From positions 1 through 35,064 of the IMG/VR virus record IMGVR_UViG_3300017928_000007: DNA of 35,064 nucleotides; one strand, written 5' to 3'. This stretch comes from a virus. The notes below the pieces were generated by a model, which ran no database searches, was not told where the DNA came from, and saw only the letters and a list, made by a program, of their open reading frames with translations. The position numbers and the translations under genes are program-made. Shown here one piece after another: positions 11,674-35,064 of this stretch; positions within the stretch are counted from its first letter, which is position 1, and each line of letters opens with the position of its first letter.

Positions 11674-12351
11674 TTAGCTCCAAGTGACCGATTTGCAGCC
11701 GAAATCGATGGTGCAGGTGACGCCGTCAAGCGAAACCTGCGTGCGATGGTCGGGCGCTGGCGTGGAGGACGCCGCCGGCGCAGGGGCCGGATCCGGCGCG
11801 GGTGCAGGGGCTGGCGGGTTCAGGATCGCCGCCGCCTTCTCGATCAGATCCCGGAAAGGGAACGTCGGCCCCGGGCAGTTGCCACGATCAACGGAGTCGA
11901 TCTTGCAGTGCCCGATGATGTGATCCGCGTCAGCGGGGATGTTGTGCCGTGCGCAGAGGTATGCGGTGAGTGCCAGGGAGGCTGCGGTCTGCGCGGCCGG
12001 CATCGGCTGGTCTGGATAGCCCTCGTGCTCGATGGAGATCGTCAGGAAGTTCGGGTTGACCTTCGCCTCCACGGCTTCCTTGAGCCAAGGGATGGAGAGG
12101 TCGGGCCCCGCTACCGCGCCGTTGGCCCAGGCACTGTCCGTCTCCTGGACGTGCTGGCGGATCTCACCTGTCTTGGCAATCGAGAAGTGAGCACTCACCT
12201 GGCTCTTCACGTTGGCGAACCAAGCGTCCGTCCCCGCTTCGGTACCTGCCTCGATGTGCATGACGATGGCGAGCGGCTGGCGGCCACTACGCCCCGGCCA
12301 GAAGTTCGGGCTGGCGTCCCACGTGATGTTCGGAGCAGCTGGCTGGATCAT
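11674..12351 (-). CDS. Endolysin: N-acetylmuramoyl-L-alanine amidase (Amidase_2)
   Basis: A 225-residue protein. The N-terminal catalytic domain has the zinc ligands expected for Amidase_2: His32 in AIVMHIEAG, His148 in HIIGHCK and Cys159 in GNCPGP, with SIEHEG at 106-111. A Pro/Ala linker and a short C-terminal segment follow (about 205-225, CTIDFGCKS). It would cleave the amide bond between muramic acid and L-alanine in host peptidoglycan. It lies between two membrane lysis candidates. AGGAGG precedes the ATG. Confidence 0.92.
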   Translation of the reverse strand: MIQPAAPNITWDASPNFWPGRSGRQPLAIVMHIEAGTEAGTDAWFANVKSQVSAHFSIAKTGEIRQHVQETDSAWANGAVAGPDLSIPWLKEAVEAKVNPNFLTISIEHEGYPDQPMPAAQTAASLALTAYLCARHNIPADADHIIGHCKIDSVDRGNCPGPTFPFRDLIEKAAAILNPPAPAPAPDPAPAPAASSTPAPDHRTQVSLDGVTCTIDFGCKSVTWS

Positions 12352-12599: not shown

Positions 12600-15488
12600 T
12601 CACGGTGTGTACGGCGTTGGAGCCGAGGTCCCGTAGTCGCGTAGGTAGCGGCGCAGCAGCGTCTTCAGGTTCTCCTGCTGCAGATATTGCACATAGGCGT
12701 TGTCGTACGCTGCCTTCTGCGGGTTGTAGGTGCCTGGGTAGAAGCCGAGGGCCTGCAGGACGGCCTGCGTCGCCGGCGAGACGCCGGCCATACGGGCGGC
12801 CTGCGGAGTCTGTGCAAGCTGCGAGAGCGGTAGGCTCAACGCCTGGAGCGGCGTGCCGATGGCGTTCAGGGCGACCTGCCACCGGGGGTCGATCATCGGA
12901 CCGGTGGTGCCGAACGCGGGAACCCGTTGCGGGGCCTCTGGCTCGGTCGGCGTGTAGAAGGTGGTCTGACCGTAGGAGCCGGGCCCCTCGAAGGGGTCCG
13001 GCATATCCGTCTGAAGTTCCACCGGCAGTGTGGCCAGCGGCGTGGCGCGGTTGAAGAGGAAGTCGAGCGGCCCCTCGTCAATCAGCTCCTCCGGGTCCTT
13101 CGCCGGCACGTTGAGGTTTGTGGCCAGGAGCTGACCAGGAATGCTCGTGGGCGCCAGCACGTCGTAGGGAGCGCCGGGCTTGCCCTGCGCCATTTGCGCG
13201 TCGTCGCCGGAGAGCACGTAATTGAGGTTCTGCACCGCCTGCAGCGGGAGCATCTGCTTGCCGGTCTGCTGCAGCCACGACTCGAACTGAATCGGGATGT
13301 TGTGGCGCTGCCAGGCGTAGAAGGGGAACAGCGTACGCATTGTGTCTCGCTCGAACGGCGTCAGGTCGCGGTAGTCGACCATGAACTTGTTGACGAAGTT
13401 CGCGGCCTCCCGGTCGGTGCTGCCGCTCTCCAGCGCCTTGCGGAACAGCGAGACGCGCATGACCTTGTCCGTCTGCCAGAGAGCGTCCTGCATCACCTGG
13501 CCGGCCTTCTGCAGGACGTTTGGCTGCTTGCCGCCCAGGCGTTGGATGGACTGCAGGACCTGTTTGTCACGCTCGAGCGACGGGCGAACGAGCGGCTCCG
13601 TCCAGTCCGAGATGGCGCCGGACTTCACGGCGCGCTGGTAGATCTCCGAGTCTTCGGGCTTTGCGACATCTTGGATGGCCTGGTAGAAACGCTTGCTGAG
13701 CAGCATGCCGCCGTCGCCCAGGTACGCGTTGTACAAGATGTTGTGCATGTGGAAAAAAGGTAAGCGGGTCATGCCCCACTTCCATGCCCCGTTGAGCTCG
13801 TCAAGTATGCCCGATAGGCCGGTCTGCACGTAGCGGCGCCCGGTCTCGCGCAGCGAGTCGGCTACGGCGCGCGGCAGGATGTAGCCACCTTGGCGCGCCA
13901 CGGCGACGCCGCTCTTGATGTCGCCGGGGTGGATGGCAATCAGCGTCGGCGACTCGATTGCGGTCGAGGTGGAGTCAAGTTCTTCAGGGCTCAGGTACCG
14001 TAGCGCATTCTGGAGCATCTGCGCCGGGAACATCCTGAGCGAGTCGGCCCGATAGACGCCCTGCCCGGCCTTGGCGAGCGCCGAGTAATCCAGCTTCCGC
14101 ATCGCCTTCGGGCTGACGTACCGGGCGCCGGCGAGCAGCTTGTTCATCATCGTCTGCGTCTCTTGGCTGCGGATGGACGCCTCGAGGCGTGGCCCCATCG
14201 ACTGCAGCCAGTTGGCTTCCCAGTTGCCGCCCTCGGCGTTCATGTGCTCTACGGTGTCGAGCAGCGAGCGGGCCTGCTTGAACTGCTGCGCGTGCAGCAT
14301 CCCCTGTGCCTCGCTGCCCAGCGTGCCGTACATCGTCGGCTGGCGGTAATCAAGGTTCAGGTGGCGCACGTAACCGGGGAGATCCTTGTTGCGTAGGCCA
14401 AGGTCTACTTCTGGATCCGTGACGTCTTGGGTGATGGCGTGCAGCTTCTCGGCGAGGTCGTACTCCGGGGTCCCTTCGGCGAACTGCGTTCCTTTCGGAA
14501 TCTCACGGCCCATCGCCAGCAGCTGCGGCCGGTAGTACTTGTCCTCTACGTGATAGGTGACGCCCTTCATCAGCTCGTCGCCGTCGTCCTTGCCCAGGGC
14601 TTTCCCTGTGGCTTTGACGTAGTCGCCGATGGCTGACTTCACGGCATCATGCAGGGCGTTGATCCGGGCTGCTGTGGTCGCATCCCGGTCCTGCCAGATC
14701 TCCTTCGCGGCTTTGGGGAAGAAGGCGAAGCGGGCAAATCGCCGCTCCACCTGGTAGCCCAATTCGTGCGCGGCGCCATACGCCTTCTCCACTGCGGCCG
14801 CCGCCTTGGGTGAGAGCTTCGACGTGTCGATCACGCCGTCTTGCGCGAACGCATCCGCGATCGGTCCGGCGATGGCCTTAAGCGGCTTGAGGATGTCGCC
14901 GAGTGGTGCATACGTGAGGGGGTTGGTCACGAACTCCAGACCTGTGCCGAGCACTGCCTGCGCGATGCCACTGCGGTTGCCCATGTCCCTGACGACTTCG
15001 CCGCCCGGGATCGCCTGAGTACCTTTGAGTGCTCCCGTGACGGCAGAGCGCACAGCCTTGTTGGACTGCGCGCTCTGCTTTTCGGGGGCTACGAACCAAC
15101 GGAGCAGCGATTCGCCTTTGGGTCGAGTCTTGAGCGAGGCATCCATGCCGCCAAGAATCGCTTCGCCGGGCCGGTTGATGAAGTTCAGCGCGGCCTCGAA
15201 CGGATGCGGCGTCAGCGGCGATGGAAGGGCCTGCGCCGCCGACTTGCCGCCCTTGATGTCGAAGTTCGCGATGCGGCCGTTGACCGCGTCGCTCAGCTGG
15301 GCGTAGGCGTCGCCACCGTAGGTGGCCTTGATGTAATCGGCATTGCTATCGACCCACTGCTTGACGCCCTTCACCCAGCTCGCATTATTCGACGTGTTGA
15401 TGTGGTCGAGCACCTGTGCAACCTTCCGGCCGCTAGCTCCTGTGAGTGGCCGCAGGCCAGGCTGCGCAAACGATGGTGCACCGGGCAT
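12600..15488 (-). CDS. Large internal virion / ejection protein
   Basis: A 962-residue protein, the longest in the window, in the tail end of the late operon before the lysis genes. It is mostly helical, with two aromatic clusters: LPFFHMHNILYNAYLGD near residue 575 and LFPFYAWQRHN near 723. Similar Phe/Trp/Tyr clusters occur in large phage proteins that are ejected or line the virion core. The C-terminal ~150 residues are Pro-rich. No lytic transglycosylase motif was found. In short-tailed phages such large proteins form a channel during DNA entry; that is an inference from size and place. AGGAG precedes ATG 15488. Confidence 0.65.
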   Translation of the reverse strand: MPGAPSFAQPGLRPLTGASGRKVAQVLDHINTSNNASWVKGVKQWVDSNADYIKATYGGDAYAQLSDAVNGRIANFDIKGGKSAAQALPSPLTPHPFEAALNFINRPGEAILGGMDASLKTRPKGESLLRWFVAPEKQSAQSNKAVRSAVTGALKGTQAIPGGEVVRDMGNRSGIAQAVLGTGLEFVTNPLTYAPLGDILKPLKAIAGPIADAFAQDGVIDTSKLSPKAAAAVEKAYGAAHELGYQVERRFARFAFFPKAAKEIWQDRDATTAARINALHDAVKSAIGDYVKATGKALGKDDGDELMKGVTYHVEDKYYRPQLLAMGREIPKGTQFAEGTPEYDLAEKLHAITQDVTDPEVDLGLRNKDLPGYVRHLNLDYRQPTMYGTLGSEAQGMLHAQQFKQARSLLDTVEHMNAEGGNWEANWLQSMGPRLEASIRSQETQTMMNKLLAGARYVSPKAMRKLDYSALAKAGQGVYRADSLRMFPAQMLQNALRYLSPEELDSTSTAIESPTLIAIHPGDIKSGVAVARQGGYILPRAVADSLRETGRRYVQTGLSGILDELNGAWKWGMTRLPFFHMHNILYNAYLGDGGMLLSKRFYQAIQDVAKPEDSEIYQRAVKSGAISDWTEPLVRPSLERDKQVLQSIQRLGGKQPNVLQKAGQVMQDALWQTDKVMRVSLFRKALESGSTDREAANFVNKFMVDYRDLTPFERDTMRTLFPFYAWQRHNIPIQFESWLQQTGKQMLPLQAVQNLNYVLSGDDAQMAQGKPGAPYDVLAPTSIPGQLLATNLNVPAKDPEELIDEGPLDFLFNRATPLATLPVELQTDMPDPFEGPGSYGQTTFYTPTEPEAPQRVPAFGTTGPMIDPRWQVALNAIGTPLQALSLPLSQLAQTPQAARMAGVSPATQAVLQALGFYPGTYNPQKAAYDNAYVQYLQQENLKTLLRRYLRDYGTSAPTPYTP

Positions 15489-15500
15489 GCGATCACGCTC

Positions 15501-16337
15501 CTATAGGCCAGGATTGGTGCCCCCGCCACTCTTGGGGGGCGCGCCCGGCTTGGCCGTCTTGGGTGCTGCAGCCTTCGGCGCAGTGCCTTTCGGGGCCGCA
15601 GCTTTTGGCGTGGGGGTCGTTGGGGCTGAGGGCGCTTTCGGTGTGGCCGCTGTGCCGCCTACCTGACTCATTGCCCAGTTCCATGTTGGCTGGGATGGCA
15701 GCACGATTTTCTGCTGCTTCAGGAACTGATCCAGGTTGGGGCCACCGCCAGTCGGATACGCCTTGCCGTACAGGGTCAAGGCGTTCTTGTAAGCGTTGTT
15801 GTATCGGTTCTGAGCAGCCGTGTAAACCTGGACCGCTCGCCCCAGCTGGTCGTAGCTGGATTGGTCGGAGGCCTTCAGCGCGTCGAGGCCCAGCGTCTGC
15901 TGCTTGATCTGCTCGTTCTGCTGCGCCACTGCCAAGTCGCCAGCGCTGATCTGCGCCCGTAGCCCGGCAATCTGTGCCTCGGCGTTGCGGTATGAGATCT
16001 CGCTGTTGGTGTTGGCCTGCGTCGTCTGCAGCTTCGCGGCATTGAGCGTGTCGTTGAACTGGTCCTGCTGCGCGGCCAGCTGGTTCTTCTGCTGATCGGA
16101 CGTGGTCTGCTCGTTGTAGTAGCCGGCGCGCGCCTGATCGGCCGACATCTCGGCCTGCTGGTAGGTGCTCGGGTGGTTCCATTGGTACATCTGAATGAGC
16201 GTCGGCAGCAATTGCATCATGTTCTGATACGCAGCCTGCGCCGCAGCGAGCTGGCCCTGAGAGGTGCCAACCAGCTGTGGCAGCTGCCCGAACGCGTTGC
16301 CGATGCCGGCCATCGAGGGAACCGGCGTGACAGCCAT
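15501..16337 (-). CDS. Coiled-coil virion protein with Pro/Ala/Lys tail
   Basis: A 278-residue protein. Residues about 25-190 are Gln/Ala-rich and helical with few breaks (QLAAAQAAYQNMMQLLPTL), likely coiled coil. The last 60 residues are low complexity (KAPSAPTTPTPKAAAPKGTA). Its start overlaps the stop of the SpeD-like gene (ATGA). Together with its large neighbour downstream it is probably an internal virion protein. No family was recognised. Confidence 0.6.
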   Translation of the reverse strand: MAVTPVPSMAGIGNAFGQLPQLVGTSQGQLAAAQAAYQNMMQLLPTLIQMYQWNHPSTYQQAEMSADQARAGYYNEQTTSDQQKNQLAAQQDQFNDTLNAAKLQTTQANTNSEISYRNAEAQIAGLRAQISAGDLAVAQQNEQIKQQTLGLDALKASDQSSYDQLGRAVQVYTAAQNRYNNAYKNALTLYGKAYPTGGGPNLDQFLKQQKIVLPSQPTWNWAMSQVGGTAATPKAPSAPTTPTPKAAAPKGTAPKAAAPKTAKPGAPPKSGGGTNPGL

Positions 16338-16702
16338 CAGTCAGTCCCCCTTTCCAGTCGGTGCGGCACGACGCGCTCCGGTCGGAAGACGCTGACGAGC
16401 TGCGAGATCGCCGCTGTCGCATCCGCCTCTTCGCCGCAGGTGAAGATGTCGATAGCGACATATTCCTCTGCTGGCCACGTGTGGATGGCACAGTGCGACT
16501 CGCGCAGCGGGATCATCAGCGTCAACTCCGACGTCCCGTAGGCGTTACCCCATTCAGCCTGCTTCAGCGAGCAGCCGACACGGCCGTGAACATGCAGTCC
16601 TGCTCGCTCCACCGCGCGGATGGAGAGCGGGGTGAGTTCCTTCTGCTCGCCGGGGCAGTAGGCGCAACCGTAGAGGTCTGCGGTGAGCAGCACGCCCTTC
16701 AT
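16337..16702 (-). CDS. speD: SpeD-like pyruvoyl-dependent decarboxylase (AdoMet decarboxylase family)
   Basis: A 121-residue protein, the size of class 1B bacterial AdoMet decarboxylases. The self-processing site is clear: RESHCAIHTWP with Glu68-Ser69 as the cleavage point and His74. Cys89 in IDIFTCGE matches the catalytic Cys of the family. Cleavage at Ser69 would generate the pyruvoyl cofactor. The family makes decarboxylated AdoMet for spermidine synthesis, but some relatives use ornithine or arginine. Two oddities: Ala78 stands where the family has Glu in IHTWPE, and about three extra residues precede the cleavage site. It overlaps the ATP-grasp gene upstream and the coiled-coil gene downstream by ATGA, so all three are translated together. 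Confidence 0.88.
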   Translation of the reverse strand: MKGVLLTADLYGCAYCPGEQKELTPLSIRAVERAGLHVHGRVGCSLKQAEWGNAYGTSELTLMIPLRESHCAIHTWPAEEYVAIDIFTCGEEADATAAISQLVSVFRPERVVPHRLERGTD

Positions 16703-18051
16703 TCGGCATCTCCGTCCTCTCCGGCGCCCGGGTGGGGTTGATCGAAGTCGACCCAGCCCCAGGATGCCAGGCGTGCCATGTCCTTCACGAAACCCTGGCC
16801 GATGTCGTGTCGCATGATGCGATAGGGGACCACCTTCAGGTGCTTCGCAGTTTCATAGGCCATCTTGATCGCGGTTTCCGGGTCGCGCCCCCGGGCCGTC
16901 ACCGCGCACATCATGCCCATGGGGCCGGCCGACATGATGTCGCCCTTGTTGTTGACTTGCACATCCAGAAGGTGGACGTGCTTCACGCCGACGTCCTTGA
17001 CGCCCTTCAGCATCAAGCCGTCGTTCTTTCCCTCGTCGTCGGCCCGCGGCCAAGTGCCGGAGGCGATCACGATGTTGCACAGGAAGTCCTTTGTGAACTG
17101 CGGCGCCAGCGGCCAGCAACCGGACATCCACTGGAGGCAGGAGGCGAAGTCGCTGTCGAGCGCTTCCGTGCAGCTCCACAGAGTGGGGTAGCCGGGGCGC
17201 GCGGTGAACTCCAGGGGCACCGTCTGGCTCGGTGTCGCAATCACGTTGACATCGATGAAGCCGGTGAATCCTTCCTTGGCGAGTAGCGGAGTCAGCCGGC
17301 CGAGGGTGCGAGTGGCGAGGTCCGGCATGTACTGGACCTGGTCCATTTCGCCCATCTGCCCTGTCGCGGGCCCCTCGTCGCCGTCCATCAGCTTCTTGTA
17401 CTCCTGGTTGACAAGGAAGTACGGGCTGAAGTGCGTGCCGTTGAAGAACCCCGTGCAGGCGATTTCGACTCCCTTCACGGCTTCCTGGAGGACGAAGTCC
17501 ACCTTCTTGCCCGGCGCAAGCGCCTGCCAGTGCTCCGCGAGCCAATCCAGGAAGCCCATCGCGGCGTCCGGCTTCCAGCAGACTGTGTTCAAGTCCCTGT
17601 CAACCTGCGCGTTGTGCTTGATAGCCCACGCGCCGCCCATCCTCTCGATGTAGCGGCGCGCGGTCTGGAAGTTGTGGAACCGGTACATCGGGACGGTGTC
17701 GACTCCATGTTGCTTCAGCGTCTCTTGGCCGAACATTCGGTCGTTCTCCAGACGATCCGTTAGCTCGGTGCCGCCGACGACCGGCTTGCCGGTCTGCCGC
17801 ACCTGCGTTGCCCAGCGGCCACCGCCGTACCGGGCCTGTCGGCCGGTGACCGCCTGCTCCACGTCGTCGAACCAGACGATGTCCGCCCAGGGAACGAGGT
17901 CCTCCCAGGACCGAACGCGATCCACCATGTTCTTGCCAACGTCCTGAGAGTCCTTGGTGTGGATGTAGTACTTCACGTCGTGGCCGTCGAGCATCATGCG
18001 CAGGGCAGCCGCAGTCGACTCGCCCAGCGCAGAGACAATGAGGATCTTCAT
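16699..18051 (-). CDS. PurD-like ATP-grasp ligase
   Basis: A 450-residue protein that follows glycinamide ribonucleotide synthetase (PurD) through its length. Visible matches are GPATGQMG (227-234) for the PurD GxNTGGMG, LEFTARPGYPT (280-290) for LEFNxRFGDPE, VTARG (384-388) and RHDIG (414-418). The N-terminal GGREHA of PurD, which binds phosphoribosylamine, is replaced by SALGESTAAA, and the KADGLAAGKGV loop is changed. It probably ligates an amine and a carboxylate with ATP but not in purine synthesis. It is coupled to the SpeD-like gene by a 4-nt overlap and sits between virion genes. Confidence 0.82.
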   Translation of the reverse strand: MKILIVSALGESTAAALRMMLDGHDVKYYIHTKDSQDVGKNMVDRVRSWEDLVPWADIVWFDDVEQAVTGRQARYGGGRWATQVRQTGKPVVGGTELTDRLENDRMFGQETLKQHGVDTVPMYRFHNFQTARRYIERMGGAWAIKHNAQVDRDLNTVCWKPDAAMGFLDWLAEHWQALAPGKKVDFVLQEAVKGVEIACTGFFNGTHFSPYFLVNQEYKKLMDGDEGPATGQMGEMDQVQYMPDLATRTLGRLTPLLAKEGFTGFIDVNVIATPSQTVPLEFTARPGYPTLWSCTEALDSDFASCLQWMSGCWPLAPQFTKDFLCNIVIASGTWPRADDEGKNDGLMLKGVKDVGVKHVHLLDVQVNNKGDIMSAGPMGMMCAVTARGRDPETAIKMAYETAKHLKVVPYRIMRHDIGQGFVKDMARLASWGWVDFDQPHPGAGEDGDAE

Positions 18052-18052
18052 C

Positions 18053-19372
18053 TCAGTACCCCATGCTGCTCAGGCCGGTCAGCGAACCGTTGCCAAGGTA
18101 GCTCGCAAGTAGAGACGGGATGGAGTTCAGCAGTTGCTGGTACGTGCCGAGCTGAGAAGAGGAACTGTAGGCGCCCGTCAACGCGGACATCAGCTGGCTC
18201 ATCAGGCCATAGTCAGTGTTCGCAAGGCCGCCTGACAGCGCGCCGCTCTGGTTGGTGGCCGTGTCTTGCAGGCCGGCGAGCGACATCAGCTGCTGGTACG
18301 GCAGGTTCGCGGCGTTGAGCGCCTCGTTGCCGAGCGTCCCCTGCGCCAGTGCGTTCTGCGTCTGATTCTGCAGGACGTCGTTCGCCAGTGTGGACTGCTC
18401 GTTGGCCGTGTTCCCAAGAACCTGTGAGAGCAGGTTGTTGTACGTCGCCTGCGGCGCGCCTCCCTGGGCGATACCCTGCGAGGCGAGTTGCGCGAGGTTG
18501 TTCTGGTATGCCGTCTGCATCTGACTCATGAGGTTGGCCGAGTATTGGTTGAGCGTGTTCTGCCCCAGCGCCGTCTGGCTGGCCGGTGACAACCCGTTCA
18601 ACGCATTCTGCATCTCCTGGTACACCGCGTTGGCGTCGGCCTGTGTCTGGCTGTTCAGGCCCTGCGCCGACGTCACGGACGAGTTGAGACCACTGCCGCC
18701 GGCCGCCAAAGTTCCAGCGGCCGCGGCTCCATTGTCTGAGTTCGCGCCGCCCGCGTTACCAGCCGCATTGACGCCGTTCTGCGCAGCGATCTTCTGGTTG
18801 TAGGCGTTCTGCGCGGCCGTTACCGAGTAGATGGGATTGCCGCCCGGGCCATTGCTGAGCGGCGTGAGGCCTGCGGTCGCGCTCGGCCCCCACAGCGCCT
18901 CGGCGTCCTGTGCTGTGATCCATTGCTGCCCCTGGTAGCTATAGACCGGGACCGTCGTGCCACCGACCGTCAGCTTGGTGGAGGCGAATTGCGAGGGGCT
19001 GCTGTTAGTGCCCGACGAGGTATTTGGCGTTGCCACCGTTGGAGTCGCGGGCTGCCCAACTGGCGCGTACGCAATGCCCGCCGCGTTCAGCAGGCCACGG
19101 TTGATGTTGGAGTTCGCCAGCGCGGAACTCGTCGAGGGTGCAGCCACGACCGGAGCGGCAGCGGCCGACGGAACACTGCTTGCTGGGGCGAAGTTCGCGG
19201 CCGTATTCGTTGCGGGCTTATTGAGCTTCGCTGAGTTCGTCACGCTTGGCCCGTTGCCGCCACCGCCAACCAGCGCCGCTAGATGCTGCGGCACATAGGT
19301 GCTTTTCGCTGGCGCCAGGGCCACCGGCTTCTGCGGCGTCGTAATGAGCTGGCTGCCGCTTTGAAGTGCCAT
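18053..19372 (-). CDS. Ala/Asn/Gln-rich virion protein with stalk-like segment
   Basis: A 439-residue protein. The first ~130 residues are low complexity (Ala/Ser/Pro/Thr). Residues about 133-163 (KLTVGGTTVPVYSYQGQQWI, then AQDAEALWG) resemble a short stalk-domain repeat. The C-terminal half is a Gln/Asn/Leu-rich helical region. It starts at ATG 19372 with AGGGAG upstream. It lies between fibre-like genes and the ATP-grasp gene, so it is probably an internal or tail-associated virion component. No family was recognised. Confidence 0.55.
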   Translation of the reverse strand: MALQSGSQLITTPQKPVALAPAKSTYVPQHLAALVGGGGNGPSVTNSAKLNKPATNTAANFAPASSVPSAAAAPVVAAPSTSSALANSNINRGLLNAAGIAYAPVGQPATPTVATPNTSSGTNSSPSQFASTKLTVGGTTVPVYSYQGQQWITAQDAEALWGPSATAGLTPLSNGPGGNPIYSVTAAQNAYNQKIAAQNGVNAAGNAGGANSDNGAAAAGTLAAGGSGLNSSVTSAQGLNSQTQADANAVYQEMQNALNGLSPASQTALGQNTLNQYSANLMSQMQTAYQNNLAQLASQGIAQGGAPQATYNNLLSQVLGNTANEQSTLANDVLQNQTQNALAQGTLGNEALNAANLPYQQLMSLAGLQDTATNQSGALSGGLANTDYGLMSQLMSALTGAYSSSSQLGTYQQLLNSIPSLLASYLGNGSLTGLSSMGY

Positions 19373-20608: not shown

Positions 20609-22486
20609 TCAATACACCACCTTGTCCACGCGCCACTGCAAATCGATCTGCTCAATGGCGAGAGAGTAGATACTGGATTCCTGGAGCGTGAAGCCGATCC
20701 GGAGGCCTGTCATAGTGTCGGGGATGCCGTAAGAGTTGCGGACGATGGAGCCGCCGCCCCAGTTCATCTCATCCCAGTTCCCCTCGTCCCAAATCAGCTC
20801 GTTCGGGTCGGTCAGCACGCAACTCTGCTGAAATTGCACCAGGAGGTCGTCCACAAAGACCGTCACCTGTGGCTGCGCCGACGAGTCTGCGCCTGAAAGC
20901 CAGAACGTGTGATACGCCTTGCTCATGCCTGCGCTCTGCAGAACAAACTGCTTCGTCGTCGCGCTCGCCGCGATGGGCTGCCCGAGGTCGGACGTCCCCT
21001 GATTGGCGATCGCCACGGTGCTGCTCCCCGCCATGCCGAGATAGACGCGGCCGGCCAAGAGATCTACGCACGCGGAGATCGCGCCCCAGGTGTAGAGCGT
21101 CCATGCACCGTGCCGGTAGTCAAAGACGACGCACTCCTGCGTGCCGTTCACTGTGCAGAGCAGATAGTACGTCCGGTCGAAGTACACGGCCTGGACCGGT
21201 TGCGACGTGTCAATGGTGACGATCAGCGGTTCCAATTTGTTGCGGCGCTGGGGCTCCTGATCGTCCGGGACCACGTCGCCTGTGTAGCCGTTCGTCCAGT
21301 AGAGGCCGTCCTGCGCGAGGTACGTCACGCCAGCAGGCGTCATGGCGATCGACCAAGGAGCGATGCATCCCTGCGGCACGACGGACTGCGAGATGGTATA
21401 GTTCGTCGGCGGCTGACCGTTCAAAGCCCACACGGACTGCGGCTTGAAGATCATGAGCTGCTGCGCGATCGGGTAGATACCGGTGATGTTGCCGGTCTGG
21501 TCTGGCGAGACGGCGGTCCAGTAGGTGCCATCACCCCAGGCCCACGGCTGCAGCACGCTGGTATAGTAGACGTTCGAGTCCTGTCCGGTGGAGGCCCAAA
21601 TGCGATCCTGATAGACGCCAGCGATCGCGAGCCCCGCAGGAGGCACCTCGTTGGTGAAGGCCAAGATCTCGTTGCCCAGGATCGAGGCGTCAGCCAGATT
21701 GTCCGTGTAGGTCGTGGTGCCGTTCGTTACGCTGCCAACCTTGATGCCCACGCCCGCGACGGTGCCGCCATTGCGATAGAGGTTGACGGTTGTGACCGTC
21801 GGATCCGTGGAGATCGGGATAGTTGTTAGCGCGGCGGCCTGGTGAGAACAGGTGATCGTGTTCCCGGCCGGCGACGGATTCGACTCCATGCCGTTGGCGC
21901 GCGCGAACGTGGCGTAGTAGTTATAGGTGCCGTTGAGGTTGCCGCTTCCCGAGGAACCGCTCGCCGCCGCAGTAACGGCCGCCGTCGGCGCGGTGACGCC
22001 CAAGGGGCCAAACGTGGTCCCATCGTAGAACCAGCCGCCGCCCGCGCCACCATCGAACACGACGAGGTAGCCGGCGAGCGCCAGCATGCAGGGCTGTCCA
22101 GTCGCCGTGAGTCCGCTGCCGATCTGCGTCACTGTGCCGCTAAGCAGATCCACGGAGACGAGTACACCCACGCCGCTGCTTGTGCAGACGGCGTAGAGCG
22201 TGCGCGCACCGCCGGCAGGCTGCCAAATGAGCATGGCACGCGCAGGACCCGGAAGCGTCGTAGTAAGGGCTTGAAGCCCCGGCCGCTTCGTCAGGCGCCC
22301 GACGTCGGAGAGCGAAAAGTTCGAAAGAGCCGCGACTTCGTTATCTTGGAGTTCGGCGTTGGCGACGCGCAGGTTGAGGCCGCCGCTGAAGTCGGCCCAG
22401 CTGTTTATCTTCCACCCGCCGTACGCTGCTCGGCTCTGGAGCCTCGACGCGAGGCCCATGCTGTTCGCCGCACGCCTCGCTGACAT
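20609..22486 (-). CDS. Tail nozzle / tubular-like protein (short-tailed phage)
   Basis: A 625-residue, beta-rich protein starting with the sequence INSWADFSGGLN and later LQDNEVAALSNFSLSD. 'F.GGLN......L.dnE...l.N' is the opening of many short-tail nozzle or head-stabilisation proteins. Repeating beta segments suggest a propeller-like body. It follows the adaptor gene and precedes the fibre, matching the order in podoviruses. Start ATG 22486 or ATG 22459; either overlaps the preceding gene by more than 115 nt. Confidence 0.75.
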   Translation of the reverse strand: MSARRAANSMGLASRLQSRAAYGGWKINSWADFSGGLNLRVANAELQDNEVAALSNFSLSDVGRLTKRPGLQALTTTLPGPARAMLIWQPAGGARTLYAVCTSSGVGVLVSVDLLSGTVTQIGSGLTATGQPCMLALAGYLVVFDGGAGGGWFYDGTTFGPLGVTAPTAAVTAAASGSSGSGNLNGTYNYYATFARANGMESNPSPAGNTITCSHQAAALTTIPISTDPTVTTVNLYRNGGTVAGVGIKVGSVTNGTTTYTDNLADASILGNEILAFTNEVPPAGLAIAGVYQDRIWASTGQDSNVYYTSVLQPWAWGDGTYWTAVSPDQTGNITGIYPIAQQLMIFKPQSVWALNGQPPTNYTISQSVVPQGCIAPWSIAMTPAGVTYLAQDGLYWTNGYTGDVVPDDQEPQRRNKLEPLIVTIDTSQPVQAVYFDRTYYLLCTVNGTQECVVFDYRHGAWTLYTWGAISACVDLLAGRVYLGMAGSSTVAIANQGTSDLGQPIAASATTKQFVLQSAGMSKAYHTFWLSGADSSAQPQVTVFVDDLLVQFQQSCVLTDPNELIWDEGNWDEMNWGGGSIVRNSYGIPDTMTGLRIGFTLQESSIYSLAIEQIDLQWRVDKVVY

Positions 22487-24499: not shown

Positions 24500-25756
24500 C
24501 TATTCGACCTCCTGGATCCCCGCGATGCGGAAGTGGCTGTTGCAGCGGCGGGTGCCGAACTGCCAGTACGCCTTCGCCATCGCCCAGTAGGCGTCGGAGT
24601 AGGAGCCGGAGCCGGTGAGTCCCTGCTTCCAGATGTCGCCCGAGCGGTCGTCCCAGTCGAGACGACGCCACTCGAAGTTCTCCAGCTGCTCGAGCGTGAT
24701 GCCGAACAACACGCCGCGCGGACCGTCCTTGTCGACGACCCACAGAACCTTGCGGCCGGCGTTGGTGTAGGCGACCGCGTTGAAGCCACCGTCGATGTCT
24801 TCTGTGTCGACGTACCGGCGGTCCGGCTCGATCAGCGCAACGTAAGCATCGCGGACGCCAGGCGTCGAGATCATGTAGTCGACCTTGCCGCCCATCGCAC
24901 CGTTGCGCGAGAACGCCTGACGGATCTGCGCGAGTGACAGCGCCGAGGAGCCGCCCCAGGTGCCCCACGTCTGCGCCTTCCAGATCGGGTAGCTCGAGCG
25001 CGCGAGCCCCTGGAGGGTCGGAACGAACGTGCCGTCGTCGACAATTCCGAGGAGCCCCATCGGCTCAAGGAACGCTGCGCCCGAGTTGCTGTTGAACGCC
25101 GAGTTGGCGTTGAACAGGTAGTCGTTCGCCGACAGCGACGTGCAGAGCGTGTTGACGGTCAGGATGCCGTTCCCGTAGTCGACGTTCTGAACAATCATCG
25201 GGCCGCCAACGCGCTGGGAGCCGCCAGTGCGCTGCGTGTAGGCCGTCAGGCTCATGTTCTGGCGGAAGACGTACGGGTTGGTGCCGGCTGAGAGCGTGAT
25301 GGTGTAGGGGCCGCTGCCGCCGGTGGACCCGACCTGGCCCATGGCGCCGCTGCCGTCGTTGAACAGTGCGCGGTTCTTCTCGAGCGCGAGGTTCTCCATC
25401 ATGCCGTCGAGTTCGTCCTGCAGAAGCGAGACGTACGCGCCATCGCCCTGGCGGATCTGATCGGCGGCCGGCCCGGACACCTGCACGGTGCCGTACATGT
25501 ACATTGGGTAGACCTGCGACAGCGCGCCGGAGCGCACCCCAGGGGTCGGCAGCGAGCCGCCGTCAGGCTGGAACGCCGTAGCCTCCGAGTAGGCGATGCG
25601 CACAGGGAACTGTTGCAGGTTACCGGTGAGGTTCTCCTTGCTCTTTGCCTTGGCACACAGGGTGTTGAGGACGGTCGCGGTGTCGATCTGGTTCGCCGGG
25701 TCTTCGTACACCGTCTTGGTCAGATAGGCCAGAGCAGCGACGTTTGCACCTGCCAT
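24500..25756 (-). CDS. Major capsid protein
   Basis: A 418-residue protein directly after the scaffold gene. A long helical stretch around residues 105-135 (LLQDELDGMMENLALEKNRA) is followed by beta domains, and near the C-terminus YWAMAKAYWQFGTRRCNSHF. The size and order portal, scaffold, capsid are those of HK97-fold capsid proteins in short-tailed phages. The N-terminal segment MAGANVAALAYLTKTVYED is typical. GGAGGG precedes the ATG. Confidence 0.85.
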   Translation of the reverse strand: MAGANVAALAYLTKTVYEDPANQIDTATVLNTLCAKAKSKENLTGNLQQFPVRIAYSEATAFQPDGGSLPTPGVRSGALSQVYPMYMYGTVQVSGPAADQIRQGDGAYVSLLQDELDGMMENLALEKNRALFNDGSGAMGQVGSTGGSGPYTITLSAGTNPYVFRQNMSLTAYTQRTGGSQRVGGPMIVQNVDYGNGILTVNTLCTSLSANDYLFNANSAFNSNSGAAFLEPMGLLGIVDDGTFVPTLQGLARSSYPIWKAQTWGTWGGSSALSLAQIRQAFSRNGAMGGKVDYMISTPGVRDAYVALIEPDRRYVDTEDIDGGFNAVAYTNAGRKVLWVVDKDGPRGVLFGITLEQLENFEWRRLDWDDRSGDIWKQGLTGSGSYSDAYWAMAKAYWQFGTRRCNSHFRIAGIQEVE

Positions 25757-27109: not shown

Positions 27110-29092
27110 CTACATCACCCCCTGTCCGGGCCCCGGCGGGGCGCCGGGCTGCTGGGGAGACGGCTGAGGAGGTGGGGCGCCTTTGCCGCCGCCCCCCGGA
27201 GGCTGTTGTGCCTGCTGCGGCTGTGCCGCGCCCGGCTGCGGAAGTGCGCCACCGTAGAACTTCATGTGGGTCTGGATGTGCGCGTCCATCTCCTGGAGTA
27301 CCGCAGGCTTGCTCGAAGGATCCATGGACGCCTTCTTGAACGCGTCGAGGTGACGCTCCAGGTGGACTTCATGATTGTCGAGCTGCCCCGGCGTGTACGA
27401 CTTGCCACCGAGCATGCCGCTGTTCTCTTCCTCGGCAATCTCCGCGTCAACGGACGCCGGCGGGTTGGACATCATCGCGCCCATGCCGGTGAACTGCAGG
27501 AACCTCTCGATGGTCTTCTCCTGGCCTGCCTGGCCGAAGATGCCCAGTTCGAGGAACTGCATGCCGACCTGGATGCGCTCGCTCCTGCTCATCGGCCCCT
27601 GGGTGTTCAGATTGACCTTCACATCCCAAGTCCCCTCAAGGTCCTTGCCCTCGAAGGCGTCAATCTCTGCTTCAATGCCGCTGCCGAAGCGCATCAGGCG
27701 GGGCTCCAGGTAGTGCGTCTTCACGATCTCGAGGCAATCGCGATAGAACCGCTGCAAAACGGATTTGACCTCCGCAAAGAACGGCGCCCGCGCCAGGTCC
27801 TCAATCTCGCGTTGGATCATCGCTTCGACGGCCGTCGACCGGCCGCCGCCCGGGGCGGACGCCCCCAGCGAGCGCAGCTGCGCGATCTGCGAAATGGACT
27901 GCTCGAGTTCTTGGACCTCGATCTGAACGTCTTCCGGCAGCGGCTGCATAGAGACGTGCTGGACTGCGCCGGTAGTCTCCTTGAAGATGACCTCGCCCGG
28001 CTCCGACGTGATGCTGTCCTTATCGATGTTGGCCGACCGGTCGACGATCCACTTGCCAGCAGCCATCATACGGACGTGCTCGATGCGCCGCGACCGCACC
28101 TCGTTGAGGTAGCGCTGCGGGTCGCGCAGCTGGTCGATTACACCCATCGGGTTGTTGGCGCCAGGGAGACGGATGAAGCCGACCTGCCGGATGGGCAGCC
28201 GGTGAGAGTAGGGGAGCTCCTCGTCGTAGCGCAGAAGAATCGGCTTCTCCTGGCCGACGTAGATCGCATAGCGCCCATCGGGGTATTTCGAAGACGGGCG
28301 CTCGAAGTACTCGCGCAGCATGACGCTGTCGCGGATGGTCTGCGGTCGGAGCCATAGACCGCTGCGCTGTGCGGAGCCGCTGCCGTTCGGCAGGGGGATC
28401 TCCGGCCGGAGGCTCTCCGGCTGCAGCTTCTTCGTCTCCTGCGGCCACGCCAGCTTGACCTCGTCGATGTTCCGGACGACTGTCCGAAAACACCAATGGG
28501 CCTGATCAAAGAGCGCCGCCGCGGGGTCCGCGAAGATCTCGAAAGGCGAAAGCACCAATGTCCGGACGTCGCCGACCTGCTTCAGGCCGCCCATCGTCTC
28601 GGCGTAGGCGTCCGGGTCCCAGTAGCCGTAGAGATAGACACAGCCGGCGGCGATCAGCCAGCCATAGAGCATCCACAACTGGTGCTCAAGCCCGAGCGCC
28701 CCGTCGTCACCCTCAAGAGAGTAGAGGTGATGGAGTATGCGGGTAGCCGCCCGGGCTGCGAGCGTGTTTTGTGGATCCGGCCCGACAGGGGTAACAACAG
28801 GCGTGATGGGGCTCGCCATGAAGCGGCCCAGCAGTCCTTGATAGACGCCCAGGACCTTGTTGTCGACGAGCCGCGCGCGCCACGAAGGCGACGGCAGGTC
28901 GCGCAGGTCCACAAAGACGTCTGGCTGCTGCTTGTCCTCGACCCACTGCAGGCCGGCGAGGTAGGCGAGGTTCAGCTTGAGGTTCTTGTCATAGGGCTTC
29001 CGGGCTTCCCGGGCGTACTGGAAGCGGTTGCGCAGCGACGCCGCCAACTGCTCGTCCATCTGCCCGAGGAGCGAGGCTACCGTGAGCGCCAC
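27110..29092 (-). CDS. Portal protein (podovirus type)
   Basis: A 660-residue protein in the expected place after terL. It has the N-terminal features of P22/podovirus-class portals: KPYDKNLKLNLAYLAGLQW, then VDNKVLGVYQGLLGRF, and conserved Trp/Tyr-rich helices (LWMLYGWLIAAGCVYLYGYW). The last ~60 residues are Pro/Gln/Gly-rich. It would form the dodecameric ring for DNA entry and bind the terminase. Start is GTG 29092 behind a G-rich ribosome site. Ends in TAG at 27110-27112, followed in frame by a small basic protein. Confidence 0.85.
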   Translation of the reverse strand: MALTVASLLGQMDEQLAASLRNRFQYAREARKPYDKNLKLNLAYLAGLQWVEDKQQPDVFVDLRDLPSPSWRARLVDNKVLGVYQGLLGRFMASPITPVVTPVGPDPQNTLAARAATRILHHLYSLEGDDGALGLEHQLWMLYGWLIAAGCVYLYGYWDPDAYAETMGGLKQVGDVRTLVLSPFEIFADPAAALFDQAHWCFRTVVRNIDEVKLAWPQETKKLQPESLRPEIPLPNGSGSAQRSGLWLRPQTIRDSVMLREYFERPSSKYPDGRYAIYVGQEKPILLRYDEELPYSHRLPIRQVGFIRLPGANNPMGVIDQLRDPQRYLNEVRSRRIEHVRMMAAGKWIVDRSANIDKDSITSEPGEVIFKETTGAVQHVSMQPLPEDVQIEVQELEQSISQIAQLRSLGASAPGGGRSTAVEAMIQREIEDLARAPFFAEVKSVLQRFYRDCLEIVKTHYLEPRLMRFGSGIEAEIDAFEGKDLEGTWDVKVNLNTQGPMSRSERIQVGMQFLELGIFGQAGQEKTIERFLQFTGMGAMMSNPPASVDAEIAEEENSGMLGGKSYTPGQLDNHEVHLERHLDAFKKASMDPSSKPAVLQEMDAHIQTHMKFYGGALPQPGAAQPQQAQQPPGGGGKGAPPPQPSPQQPGAPPGPGQGVM

Positions 29093-29390: not shown

Positions 29391-30824
29391 CTACCCCCAA
29401 TTCCGTTCATACCTAGATTGGGTACCGGATCGCCGCAGCTCCCGCGCCGGGTGAACGCGGTTCCACGGCTCCCGAACCGCCTGCCGCGGCAACCCTGCGC
29501 GCTCGCCATACCGGACCGCCATCACGAGATAGCGAAGCGCGTCGGCCGCGTGGTCGTCGCGCTTCAGTGGCTGCTCTCGGTTGGTCCCCGTCTTGTCGGG
29601 CGCCCATCGATACTGCTTGAGTTCCCGAATGAGGTGTGTGCACCGCGGGTGAATGCAGAGCATCGGGTATTCGTACTCCGCGACCTCGGGGTGCCGGATG
29701 CGCTCCTGCAGCCGCCGGCGGACTTCCTCAATGCCCAGCATCAGCGTGTTGTTGCCGGGGTTGAGGTAGATGTGCTCGTGCGCGAAGCGGTCTGCAACCG
29801 ACTTCCCATCAGGTGCCCGGTTCTGCGTGGACGGGTCGGCGACGGGCCGGTCAATGCCGCGCTCGCGCATCCACGCAGCCGCGTCCGGGATCACTGCCTC
29901 GCCGCCGTTGGGCTTGTAGAACTCGTCGTCGATCCAGAGGATGCCTTCAAAGTCCACGAACCCGTCCAGGACACATGTGGCATTCCGGATGCCGAAGTCG
30001 AGCGAGGCCACACGGATCTGATGCCCGTTCTTCCTCCACGGCTCCGGCACGCGGACGTGTGTGCGTTCGCTGAATCCTGGGTAGATCTGCCCCTCGAACA
30101 CGTCGAAGGAGGCGTCCAGGAACCGCCGGCCCCACTCATCCAGCGAGCCGTCAGGCAGCGTGTGTTGGGCGTACTGGTCTGAATAGTCCTCCGGCAGGTT
30201 GGCCAAGTTCTCCGACGTCTTCACGGTGAAGCAGGCGAAGCGGTCGTGGAGTTTCTCCGGGACCGCTTCCTTGGTCACGAAGTACTTGTAGATCCAGTCG
30301 TGACCGCCGGGGTTACTTGTGACAAAGCCGCGATTCGGGCCGTTGTGGCCGGAAAGGCGGCTTTGGAGGGTCTTGAATGTCGTCTCCGGGACCTCTGAGC
30401 CATCCGGCTCATGAGCCTCGTCAATCCACCACCAATCGAGCTCTAGGGACCCCAAAGGCCCCGGGTCGTCCAGGTGGTAGAAGAGTATCTCGCTGAACAC
30501 GTTCGGCTGGCTGGTGTTCAGCCACAGGTGCTGTTCGTGCGATCGCCAGTCGGCAATGAGCCCTTTCGGGATCATCTTGAACAGCGTGTCCTGCGTCGTC
30601 TCACCGAGAGCCTTCGCCGTCAGACGGCCGATCAGGCCCTTGCTGCCGGGGTAGAGCTGCGTCAGCTTGATCGCCTGGTAGGCACCGGCGACCGTCTTTC
30701 CCGACCGCATGCCTCCGACGAACGCCACATACTTGGCAGGGCACTGCAGGAAGGCCCGCTGATGCTCCAGCCAATCGTATCGTGGCATCTCCTGCGGGGA
30801 GCCGTGGACAATGCTATACGGCAT
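29391..30824 (-). CDS. terL: Terminase large subunit
   Basis: A 477-residue packaging motor. ATPase domain: Walker A GGMRSGKT (37-44), Walker B WWWIDEAHE (131-139) and the coupling motif TSNPGGHDW (169-177). Nuclease domain: SLDFG (274-278, Asp276), VADPS (328-332, Asp330) and DDHAADALRY (423-432) supply the acidic metal-binding residues. It cuts and pumps phage DNA into the procapsid through the portal. It overlaps the small-subunit gene by 11 nt. GAGGAGG precedes ATG 30824. Confidence 0.96.
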   Translation of the reverse strand: MPYSIVHGSPQEMPRYDWLEHQRAFLQCPAKYVAFVGGMRSGKTVAGAYQAIKLTQLYPGSKGLIGRLTAKALGETTQDTLFKMIPKGLIADWRSHEQHLWLNTSQPNVFSEILFYHLDDPGPLGSLELDWWWIDEAHEPDGSEVPETTFKTLQSRLSGHNGPNRGFVTSNPGGHDWIYKYFVTKEAVPEKLHDRFACFTVKTSENLANLPEDYSDQYAQHTLPDGSLDEWGRRFLDASFDVFEGQIYPGFSERTHVRVPEPWRKNGHQIRVASLDFGIRNATCVLDGFVDFEGILWIDDEFYKPNGGEAVIPDAAAWMRERGIDRPVADPSTQNRAPDGKSVADRFAHEHIYLNPGNNTLMLGIEEVRRRLQERIRHPEVAEYEYPMLCIHPRCTHLIRELKQYRWAPDKTGTNREQPLKRDDHAADALRYLVMAVRYGERAGLPRQAVREPWNRVHPARELRRSGTQSRYERNWG

Positions 30825-33759: not shown

Positions 33760-34197
33760 ATGACGACCTGCTACCGGATCCAGGAGCGCAGCCGCGACCC
33801 ACGGGAGCTGCTCAACCCTGAGAACTGGACATCGCACGTCTGGACCGGAGAAGTCTACCGCCAGTGCGCCACCTGCCACGGATCCGGCGAGGTGTGGACC
33901 GACGCAGACGCCGAGTACCCGGAGGAATGTCCGGAATGCGGCGGTCGGGGCGAGACCGAAGACGTGCGGCGCGGAATCAGCGTTTGCGACTCGCTTGAGC
34001 ACCTCGCCTGCTATTTTGCCGATCGGCACGCGGACCTGAAGGACGTCGTAGTCGTCGCACTCGCAGGCGACATTTCCGAGGACGACGACTGGGAGGCCGC
34101 AGACGGTGCGCTGCTGGTCTACCCGACGGCGATTGTGCGCGTGATGACACTCGCGGATGCCGGTCTCGACTGGCTGCGCGAGGAGGACGCCGAGTGA
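33760..34197 (+). CDS. DnaJ-type zinc-finger protein
   Basis: A 145-residue protein from ATG 33760 with AAGGAGG upstream. Residues about 29-56 contain CATCHGSGEV and CPECGGRGE, the CxxCxGxG repeat of DnaJ-type zinc fingers, but without a J domain. The C-terminal half is an acidic alpha/beta segment. It is coupled to the excisionase-like gene (GTGA). Such finger-only proteins are common in actinobacterial and other Gram-positive phages, with unknown role. Confidence 0.7.
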   Translation: MTTCYRIQERSRDPRELLNPENWTSHVWTGEVYRQCATCHGSGEVWTDADAEYPEECPECGGRGETEDVRRGISVCDSLEHLACYFADRHADLKDVVVVALAGDISEDDDWEAADGALLVYPTAIVRVMTLADAGLDWLREEDAE

Positions 34198-34373
34198 AAC
34201 TCTACGGCGTCGCCGAGATCGCGATGGCACTCGGAGTCGACCGCCGAAAGGTGGCAATGTGGCGAACGCGCGGGAAGCTGCCGCCACCGACGCAAGTTCT
34301 CTCCACGGGGCCGGTCTGGACGGCCGCAGACATCGAACCATGGATCGCTGACCAGATAGAGCGCCGGGGCTAA
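34194..34373 (+). CDS. Excisionase-like small HTH protein
   Basis: A 59-residue protein from GTG 34194, overlapping the previous stop. It reads VKLYGVAEIAMALGVDRRKV, then MWRTRGKLPPPTQ, VWTAADIEPW, the AlpA/MerR-like winged HTH typical of small phage excisionases. It lies directly next to the attachment region and opposite the integrase. It probably binds the phased repeats at 34578-34617 and directs excision. A hairpin terminator overlaps its stop. Confidence 0.75.
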   Translation: MKLYGVAEIAMALGVDRRKVAMWRTRGKLPPPTQVLSTGPVWTAADIEPWIADQIERRG

Positions 34374-34760: not shown

Positions 34761-35064
34761 TTAGGACCCGGATGGTCGCCGTTTGGTCGCCGAGGCCTGC
34801 AGAAACTCATTCAACCGCTCGGCAGCTGCACGGTTGGCCTCCGGAGTGAGGTGGCCGTAGATGTCCGCCGTCGTCGAGATGTTCCGGTGCCCGAGGCGCT
34901 GTGAGACAGTCTCGATCGGCACGCCGGCAGCCATTTGCATGCTGGCGGCAGTGTGACGCAGGTCATAGACGCGCACCGGCGGCAGGCCGAGGCGGTTGCG
35001 AAGCCGGCGCCACGCGCGATCGACATGGTCAATGCTGACACCGCTCCCGGAGGCTGTGGCGAAC
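34761..35064 (-). CDS. int: Tyrosine integrase, C-terminal part (N-terminus outside window)
   Basis: About 101 residues, running off the right edge. The catalytic C-domain shows DLRHTAAS (Arg-His of the R-H-x-x-R region) and LGHRNISTTADIYGHL with His and the active-site Tyr. It would recombine attP with the host tRNA site. The gene's last codons contain the right arm site. It lies right beside the att core and opposes the excisionase-like gene, the common int/xis arrangement. The first catalytic Arg lies beyond the window. Confidence 0.92.
   Translation of the reverse strand, partial: FATASGSGVSIDHVDRAWRRLRNRLGLPPVRVYDLRHTAASMQMAAGVPIETVSQRLGHRNISTTADIYGHLTPEANRAAAERLNEFLQASATKRRPSGS
34772..34793 (+). 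repeat. Right arm-type integrase site
   Basis: Exact copy of 34542-34563 (two TGGTCGCCG boxes). It lies inside the 3' end of the integrase gene, about 60 bp from the core, mirrored by the left copy about 100 bp on the other side. Confidence 0.65.

Follow-up and report, generated by a model that had tools for sequence, protein, structure and literature searches.

The window analysed here, 35,064 nt in full, is a linear virus contig of ~35 kb (IMGVR_UViG_3300017928_000007) in which the genes of interest lie in a single late operon, all on the same (minus) strand. The operon starts with genes coding for the terminase large subunit (29391..30824; phrog_2, E 8e-33), the portal protein (27110..29092; phrog_156, E 3e-32) and the major capsid protein (24500..25756; phrog_14242, E 1.1e-38), followed by a structural protein gene, a gene coding for a 625-aa internal virion or stabilisation-type protein (20609..22486; phrog_511, E 2.5e-34, with matches to KF-1-like podoviruses), a fibre-like gene and genes for proteins of 89 aa and 439 aa (18053..19372 for the latter). 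Next come a PurD-fold ATP-grasp amide ligase of 450 aa (16699..18051) and a 121-aa SpeD-like homologue of the pyruvoyl-type class 1b AdoMet decarboxylases (16337..16702). Genes for proteins of 278 aa (15501..16337), 962 aa (12600..15488) and 75 aa separate this pair from the endolysin gene (11674..12351; phrog_1493, E 1.2e-19) that ends the operon, such that head and tail genes lie upstream of the pair and the endolysin gene downstream. At one end of the contig, four 24-bp direct repeats (1-117) encode a GNATVEA-type repeat protein. Towards the opposite end, the frames at 34761-34976 and 34194-34373 resemble, by eye, the C-terminal part of a tyrosine recombinase and a small protein of the HTH type, respectively, which is suggestive of a temperate phage.

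Both frames of the pair are complete and coding-like, and the key motifs reported in an earlier note on this DNA (ESH in SpeD, GPATGQMG and LEFTARPG in the ligase) were all found. The same note described 4-nt overlaps of the two genes with each other and with a virion protein gene. The former was confirmed, as the stop codon of the ATP-grasp gene and the start codon of the SpeD gene share an ATGA (16699..16702) that is also ATGA in a related virus record, L009, and GTGA in a prokaryotic genome, L089. The latter was not, since the SpeD and 278-aa genes have a single nucleotide in common (TGATG) and a 1-nt gap separates the 439-aa gene from the ATP-grasp gene. The location of the pair inside a virion gene block, also claimed in the note, holds for the operon as a whole; for the immediate neighbours we infer it, because the 439-, 278- and 962-aa proteins have no convincing PHROG match (a weak tail-needle match, 0.0033, for the 278-aa protein). 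The 439-aa protein, which is of low complexity, rich in A, G and Q and has a homologue at the same place in L009, is a probable internal virion protein, the 278-aa protein is a candidate virion protein, and the 962-aa protein, 66-68% identical in L009, is probably a large internal virion protein.

The SpeD-like protein matches the Pfam AdoMet_dc domain with 70.7 bits (E 1.6e-19) for a cut-off of 25. Its S69 (within ESH), H74 and C89 align with S63, H68 and C83 of the Thermotoga maritima AdoMet decarboxylase (1tlu), for which processing and the roles of catalytic residues have been described (PMC10407285), and the Ser, His and Cys are invariant in the SpeDs of all eight paired loci presented below. 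With 66.2 bits, the protein falls below the cut-off of 75.65 of the NCBIfam adenosylmethionine decarboxylase equivalog; consequently, we refer to the gene as SpeD-like rather than SpeD. A proline residue is known to separate AdoMet from arginine decarboxylases (PMC10407285), and the proline of the HTWP motif, retained in 8/8 paired SpeDs, may correspond to this gamma Pro, which would favour AdoMet as the substrate. The residue following HTWP is Ala in the window and Glu in T. maritima. Phage SpeD homologues can act on AdoMet, on arginine or on ornithine (PMC9992855). For the window protein, AdoMet is the predicted substrate on the basis of the signature, arginine or ornithine being possible as well. 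The SpeD of one paired virus record (L170:7243-7665) bears KSS in place of ESH, with Ser, His and Cys remaining, which makes its processing doubtful.

The ATP-grasp protein scores above the cut-off for Pfam GARS_A (E 1.4e-13) and below it for GARS_C (23.2 bits, cut-off 34.8), and has no match among PHROG families. Its closest PDB profile match is the GAR synthetase 2yw2 (E 6e-43), which is also the top Foldseek match (TM 0.73/0.77) of its AlphaFold model (pTM 0.84). Its relatives of phage and cellular origin retain residues K145, E196, K219, E281, R285 and R414-x-D416-x-G418, as does PurD. On the other hand, the phosphoribosylamine loop GGREHA, present in the PurD controls L203 and L204, is absent from the window protein and from the relatives displayed with it. 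Three PurD motifs are also modified: QDHKR reads QEYKK, EFN reads EFT or EWT, and GDPE reads GYPT, with loss of the acid. The paired ligases carry insertions of their own (N-domain, ~residues 66-80, and 178-181) that none of the 38 other members compared, phage or cellular, possesses. Since the 33 pair-specific positions are not enriched in the N-domain (6, versus 25 in the ATP-grasp domain), the argument for a rebuilt acceptor site rests on the loss of GGREHA and on these insertions, which fit a changed acceptor, albeit short of proof. The N-domain thus appears remodelled relative to PurD. In PurD, an arginine binds the carboxylate of glycine. As this arginine is retained, an amino-carboxylate is the likely donor by analogy, and the acceptor is likely the substrate that changed.

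Another explanation, an ordinary AdoMet decarboxylase and an ordinary GAR synthetase acquired from a host, agrees with the fold and domains of both proteins. We nevertheless give it very little credence, since the purD cut-off of NCBIfam is missed threefold (96.3 bits for a required 288), the phosphoribosylamine loop is gone, conserved PurD positions carry E for D and T for N, and SpeD misses its equivalog cut-off. An identification as ordinary PurD was rejected on the same grounds, as well as on the tree, in which PurD forms a separate clade (100/100) at the end of a long branch. The purD genes of two phage-labelled records, OQ572412.1 (L008) and CAKLQH020000004.1 (L203), were considered as phage genes; they stand beside purH in what looks like bacterial DNA, and were consequently used only as PurD controls.

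Related loci were not matched by single-protein searches and could be found only with alignment queries. A two-sequence alignment query retrieved at least 152 ATP-grasp relatives in viral contigs, 80 of 152 being retained. In nearly all of these contigs (L005 and L010-L088 were examined) no SpeD is found nearby. The ATP-grasp gene of such phages usually starts a few nucleotides from the end of a gene coding for a late protein of 400-1700 aa, and the gene that follows it often begins with a PIPQ...WR-x-WF motif. The core function of the ligase is therefore not always dependent on SpeD.

This translational coupling to large late proteins, often through ATGA and in many lineages, raises the possibility that the ligase modifies proteins, attaching amino-acyl or amine groups to a virion protein encoded nearby or to a host protein; the amine would then come from SpeD. 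Roles in protein modification have been predicted for some ATP-grasp enzymes (PMC4431377). However, the C-termini of the upstream proteins show neither a conserved motif nor a common tag, and the PurD fold with its retained carboxylate arginine rather favours a small-molecule substrate, making such a role quite improbable in our opinion.

The pair, either adjacent or within ~2 kb, was found in eight records: the window, L009, L089, L090, L170, L171, L176 and L178. The earlier note had named a search for conserved co-occurrence in phages as one way to check the association, and had regarded its absence from related phages as a refutation; the association proved to be conserved. L009 exhibits an unchanged gene order, with an ATP-grasp protein 72% and a SpeD 59% identical to those of the window, and pN/pS values between the two records (0.44 for ATP-grasp, 0.54 for SpeD) indicate purifying selection. 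A scan of GTDB genomes yielded L089, from a Bacillota MAG, and L090, from a Coprothermobacteraceae MAG (Coprothermobacterota). In both, SpeD is immediately downstream of the ligase and the surroundings are phage-like, with a large late protein gene before the pair and a gene coding for a GH25 lysozyme (L089) or a C1 peptidase (L090) after it. The four loci L170, L171, L176 and L178 came from two further scans, and a search of 398 genomes from the phylum of L089 revealed no further pair. Five loci of the clade (L009, L089, L090, L170 and L171) were retrieved by ATP-grasp alone, and SpeD is present at all five; L176 and L178 were retrieved through SpeD and consequently are not independent counts of pairing. 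Two genes separate the pair in L178 and one gene does so in L170, the latter being provisionally taken as an insertion. A papain-family protease fused to Cu_amine_oxidN1 is encoded at or near the pair in L090, L176 and L178 (detected with Pfam) and in L171 (by sequence likeness).

A ninth, distant pair was identified in a short virus contig, L179 (1022-3110), where SpeD precedes a very divergent ATP-grasp gene, in reversed order, upstream of or beside a prohead protease gene. Its SpeD reads HTWY instead of HTWP, and its placement in the trees is unsure; L179 might represent a second origin of the pairing. A domain search of whole records, several of the pair-bearing ones being fragments, detected AdoMet_dc in 7/7 pair-bearing virus records, L179 included. 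The 28 phage records that contain other ATP-grasp relatives, a large number of which span 38-49 kb, gave no AdoMet_dc match.

Phylogenetic analysis of 52 ATP-grasp sequences grouped the eight paired ligases into a single clade (100/100), outside which lie 17 further phage sequences (99/99), 21 of cellular origin (100/100) and PurD. The SpeDs of the same eight records also form a single clade (98/98), separate from host SpeDs and from those of other phages; given the weakness of the inner branches of the SpeD tree, we do not claim co-evolution branch by branch. Between the window and L176, L178, L171, L089, L090 and L170, the ATP-grasp proteins are 41-46% and the SpeDs 34-48% identical, whereas identity is down to 20-25% for the portal, capsid and stabilisation proteins, where these were detected at all in loci of which some are incomplete. 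A pair more conserved than the virion genes around it implies joint transfer, joint constraint or both. The coupling of the two enzymes put forward in the earlier note is therefore strongly supported, by its recurrence in eight records, by a single clade for each gene and by this excess of conservation. Since the eight records belong to a single clade, one origin may explain them all, and co-inheritance may stem from shared late regulation instead of shared chemistry.

Another possibility is that of two independent late functions that travel together by chance. SpeD would then raise the supply of dcAdoMet or polyamines for spermidine synthesis by the host SpeE, providing counter-ions for DNA packaging, and the ligase would work as in phages devoid of SpeD. 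The MAGs containing L089 and L090 encode their own speD and speE, a phage SpeD can restore spermidine (PMC9992855), and the ATP-grasp family is found alone elsewhere. Yet SpeD accompanies 8/8 members of the ATP-grasp clade, the two genes define matching single clades, and the divergent clade of the paired SpeDs includes none of the other phage or host SpeDs used for comparison. We thus deem independence unlikely. Spermidine synthase (PF01564) was not detected in the seven virus records, some of them fragments; a complete spermidine route encoded by the phages is therefore unlikely, although the host SpeE could serve.

The fact that distantly related phages keep both genes together makes it very probable that they belong to one small pathway. 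We propose that the pair is a two-step cassette made late, in which SpeD would produce an amine that the ATP-grasp ligase would bond, as an amide, to an amino-carboxylate; taken as a whole, this reading has in our view an even chance of being correct. SpeD would cleave itself at Ser69, generating the pyruvoyl group, and decarboxylate its substrate (AdoMet according to the signature, possibly arginine or ornithine) to an amine. The PurD-type ATP-grasp enzyme would phosphorylate an amino acid, or a similar molecule, on its carboxylate, then couple the activated carboxylate to the SpeD amine. The acceptor site, which holds phosphoribosylamine in PurD, would have been rebuilt in the paired clade to fit the amine made by SpeD. 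Synthesis of the conjugate, or its transfer to a protein, would coincide with virion assembly. The production of an amine followed by its ligation, as suggested in the earlier note, remains the best chemical reading, with substrates that we infer from signatures and retained residues. The further roles that the note put forward, namely attachment to a virion protein, a counter-ion in packaging and a packaged product, are conceivable. No third enzyme beside the pair hints at the product, and as most phage members of the wider family function in the absence of SpeD, the amine used by the ligase may have another source. More tentatively, decarboxylated AdoMet (or agmatine or putrescine) could act as the amine acceptor of the PurD-type ligase instead of as an aminopropyl donor, giving rise to an amide metabolite or a mark on proteins that has not been described hitherto, would be produced along with the virion and might be delivered in it; we find this specific scheme rather doubtful.

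Delivery by the virion would also apply if the pair or its product were packaged and injected early to alter the host or neutralise its defences, like the late-gene modules of polyvalent proteins. In related phages the ATP-grasp gene follows genes coding for very large late proteins of 500-1800 aa, among which the 1298-aa protein of L089 matches giant PHROGs and the 1805-aa protein upstream of the pair in L171 contains DdrB-ParB, a domain characteristic of polyvalent proteins that are injected. Such domains were described as injected and as adjoining virion genes (PMC5512222), and the L171 neighbour keeps this reading among the rivals of the proposed cassette. A recognised polyvalent domain was however found in just one upstream protein, metabolic enzymes could equally be explained by a need during assembly, and the pair consists of stand-alone metabolic-type enzymes, unlike the polyvalent proteins with which it shares a late position by virion genes and large neighbours. 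Packaging and injection hence seem improbable to us.

Both enzyme families, phage SpeDs, phage amidoligase clusters and injected late proteins are known; the coupling of SpeD with an ATP-grasp ligase is apparently new. It is not described in the literature searched, an earlier mention in Iyer et al. 2009 being possible. The ligase resembles PurD by its fold, its domain order (N, ATP-grasp, C), the ATP-grasp lysine, the glutamate of the EFN/EFT motif with its arginine and the C-terminal R-x-D-x-G, and differs by the missing GGREHA loop, the extra insertions, the motif changes and a context without purine genes. Likewise, SpeD shares the autoprocessing Ser, the His, the Cys, HTWP and its size with class 1b SpeD/SpeH and with phage arginine and ornithine decarboxylases (PMC9992855, PMC10407285); it diverges from them by its separate clade, its N-terminal half, its score below the NCBIfam cut-off and its link to an ATP-grasp gene in place of a SpeE partner. 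The amidoligase clusters of LUZ24-like and phiEco32-like phages (Iyer et al. 2009, as cited in PMC10580990) are comparable in that they encode phage amide-bond ligases, an ATP-grasp gene included, whose product is not known. Their representative in UFV-P2 (PMC3890496) is located among early genes, with a GATase, an Amidoligase_2 and a GGCT-like gene, whereas the PurD-type ligase of the window adjoins SpeD within a late operon. No GATase, Amidoligase_2 or GGCT was found among the subset of genes of the window and related loci scanned with Pfam. Glutathionylspermidine synthetase, an amide ligase as well, forms its bond between a polyamine and a carboxylate. It belongs to a different enzyme family and is likened to the pair by function alone, as its closest functional analogue; viral homologues of it have been mentioned (PMC9992855). 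What seemed an oddity of one genome becomes a conserved two-gene cassette that lends itself to direct tests, both enzymes being small. A chemical coupling, if confirmed, would add a new viral use of SpeD products and a substrate class for the PurD-like ligase family.

Members of this family are frequent among phage contigs from the environment, also occur in many archaea and bacteria, and easily receive an annotation as purine biosynthesis genes. Stand-alone PurD paralogues with a similar EFTxRPG-type motif (L091-L168) are widespread in DPANN, other archaea and many bacteria, where they exhibit no conserved neighbourhood and are probably easily mistaken for PurD. A viral member, located at 42140-43468 of the GenBank phage record MW202796.1 (L005:20001-21332), is present there as an unannotated gene.
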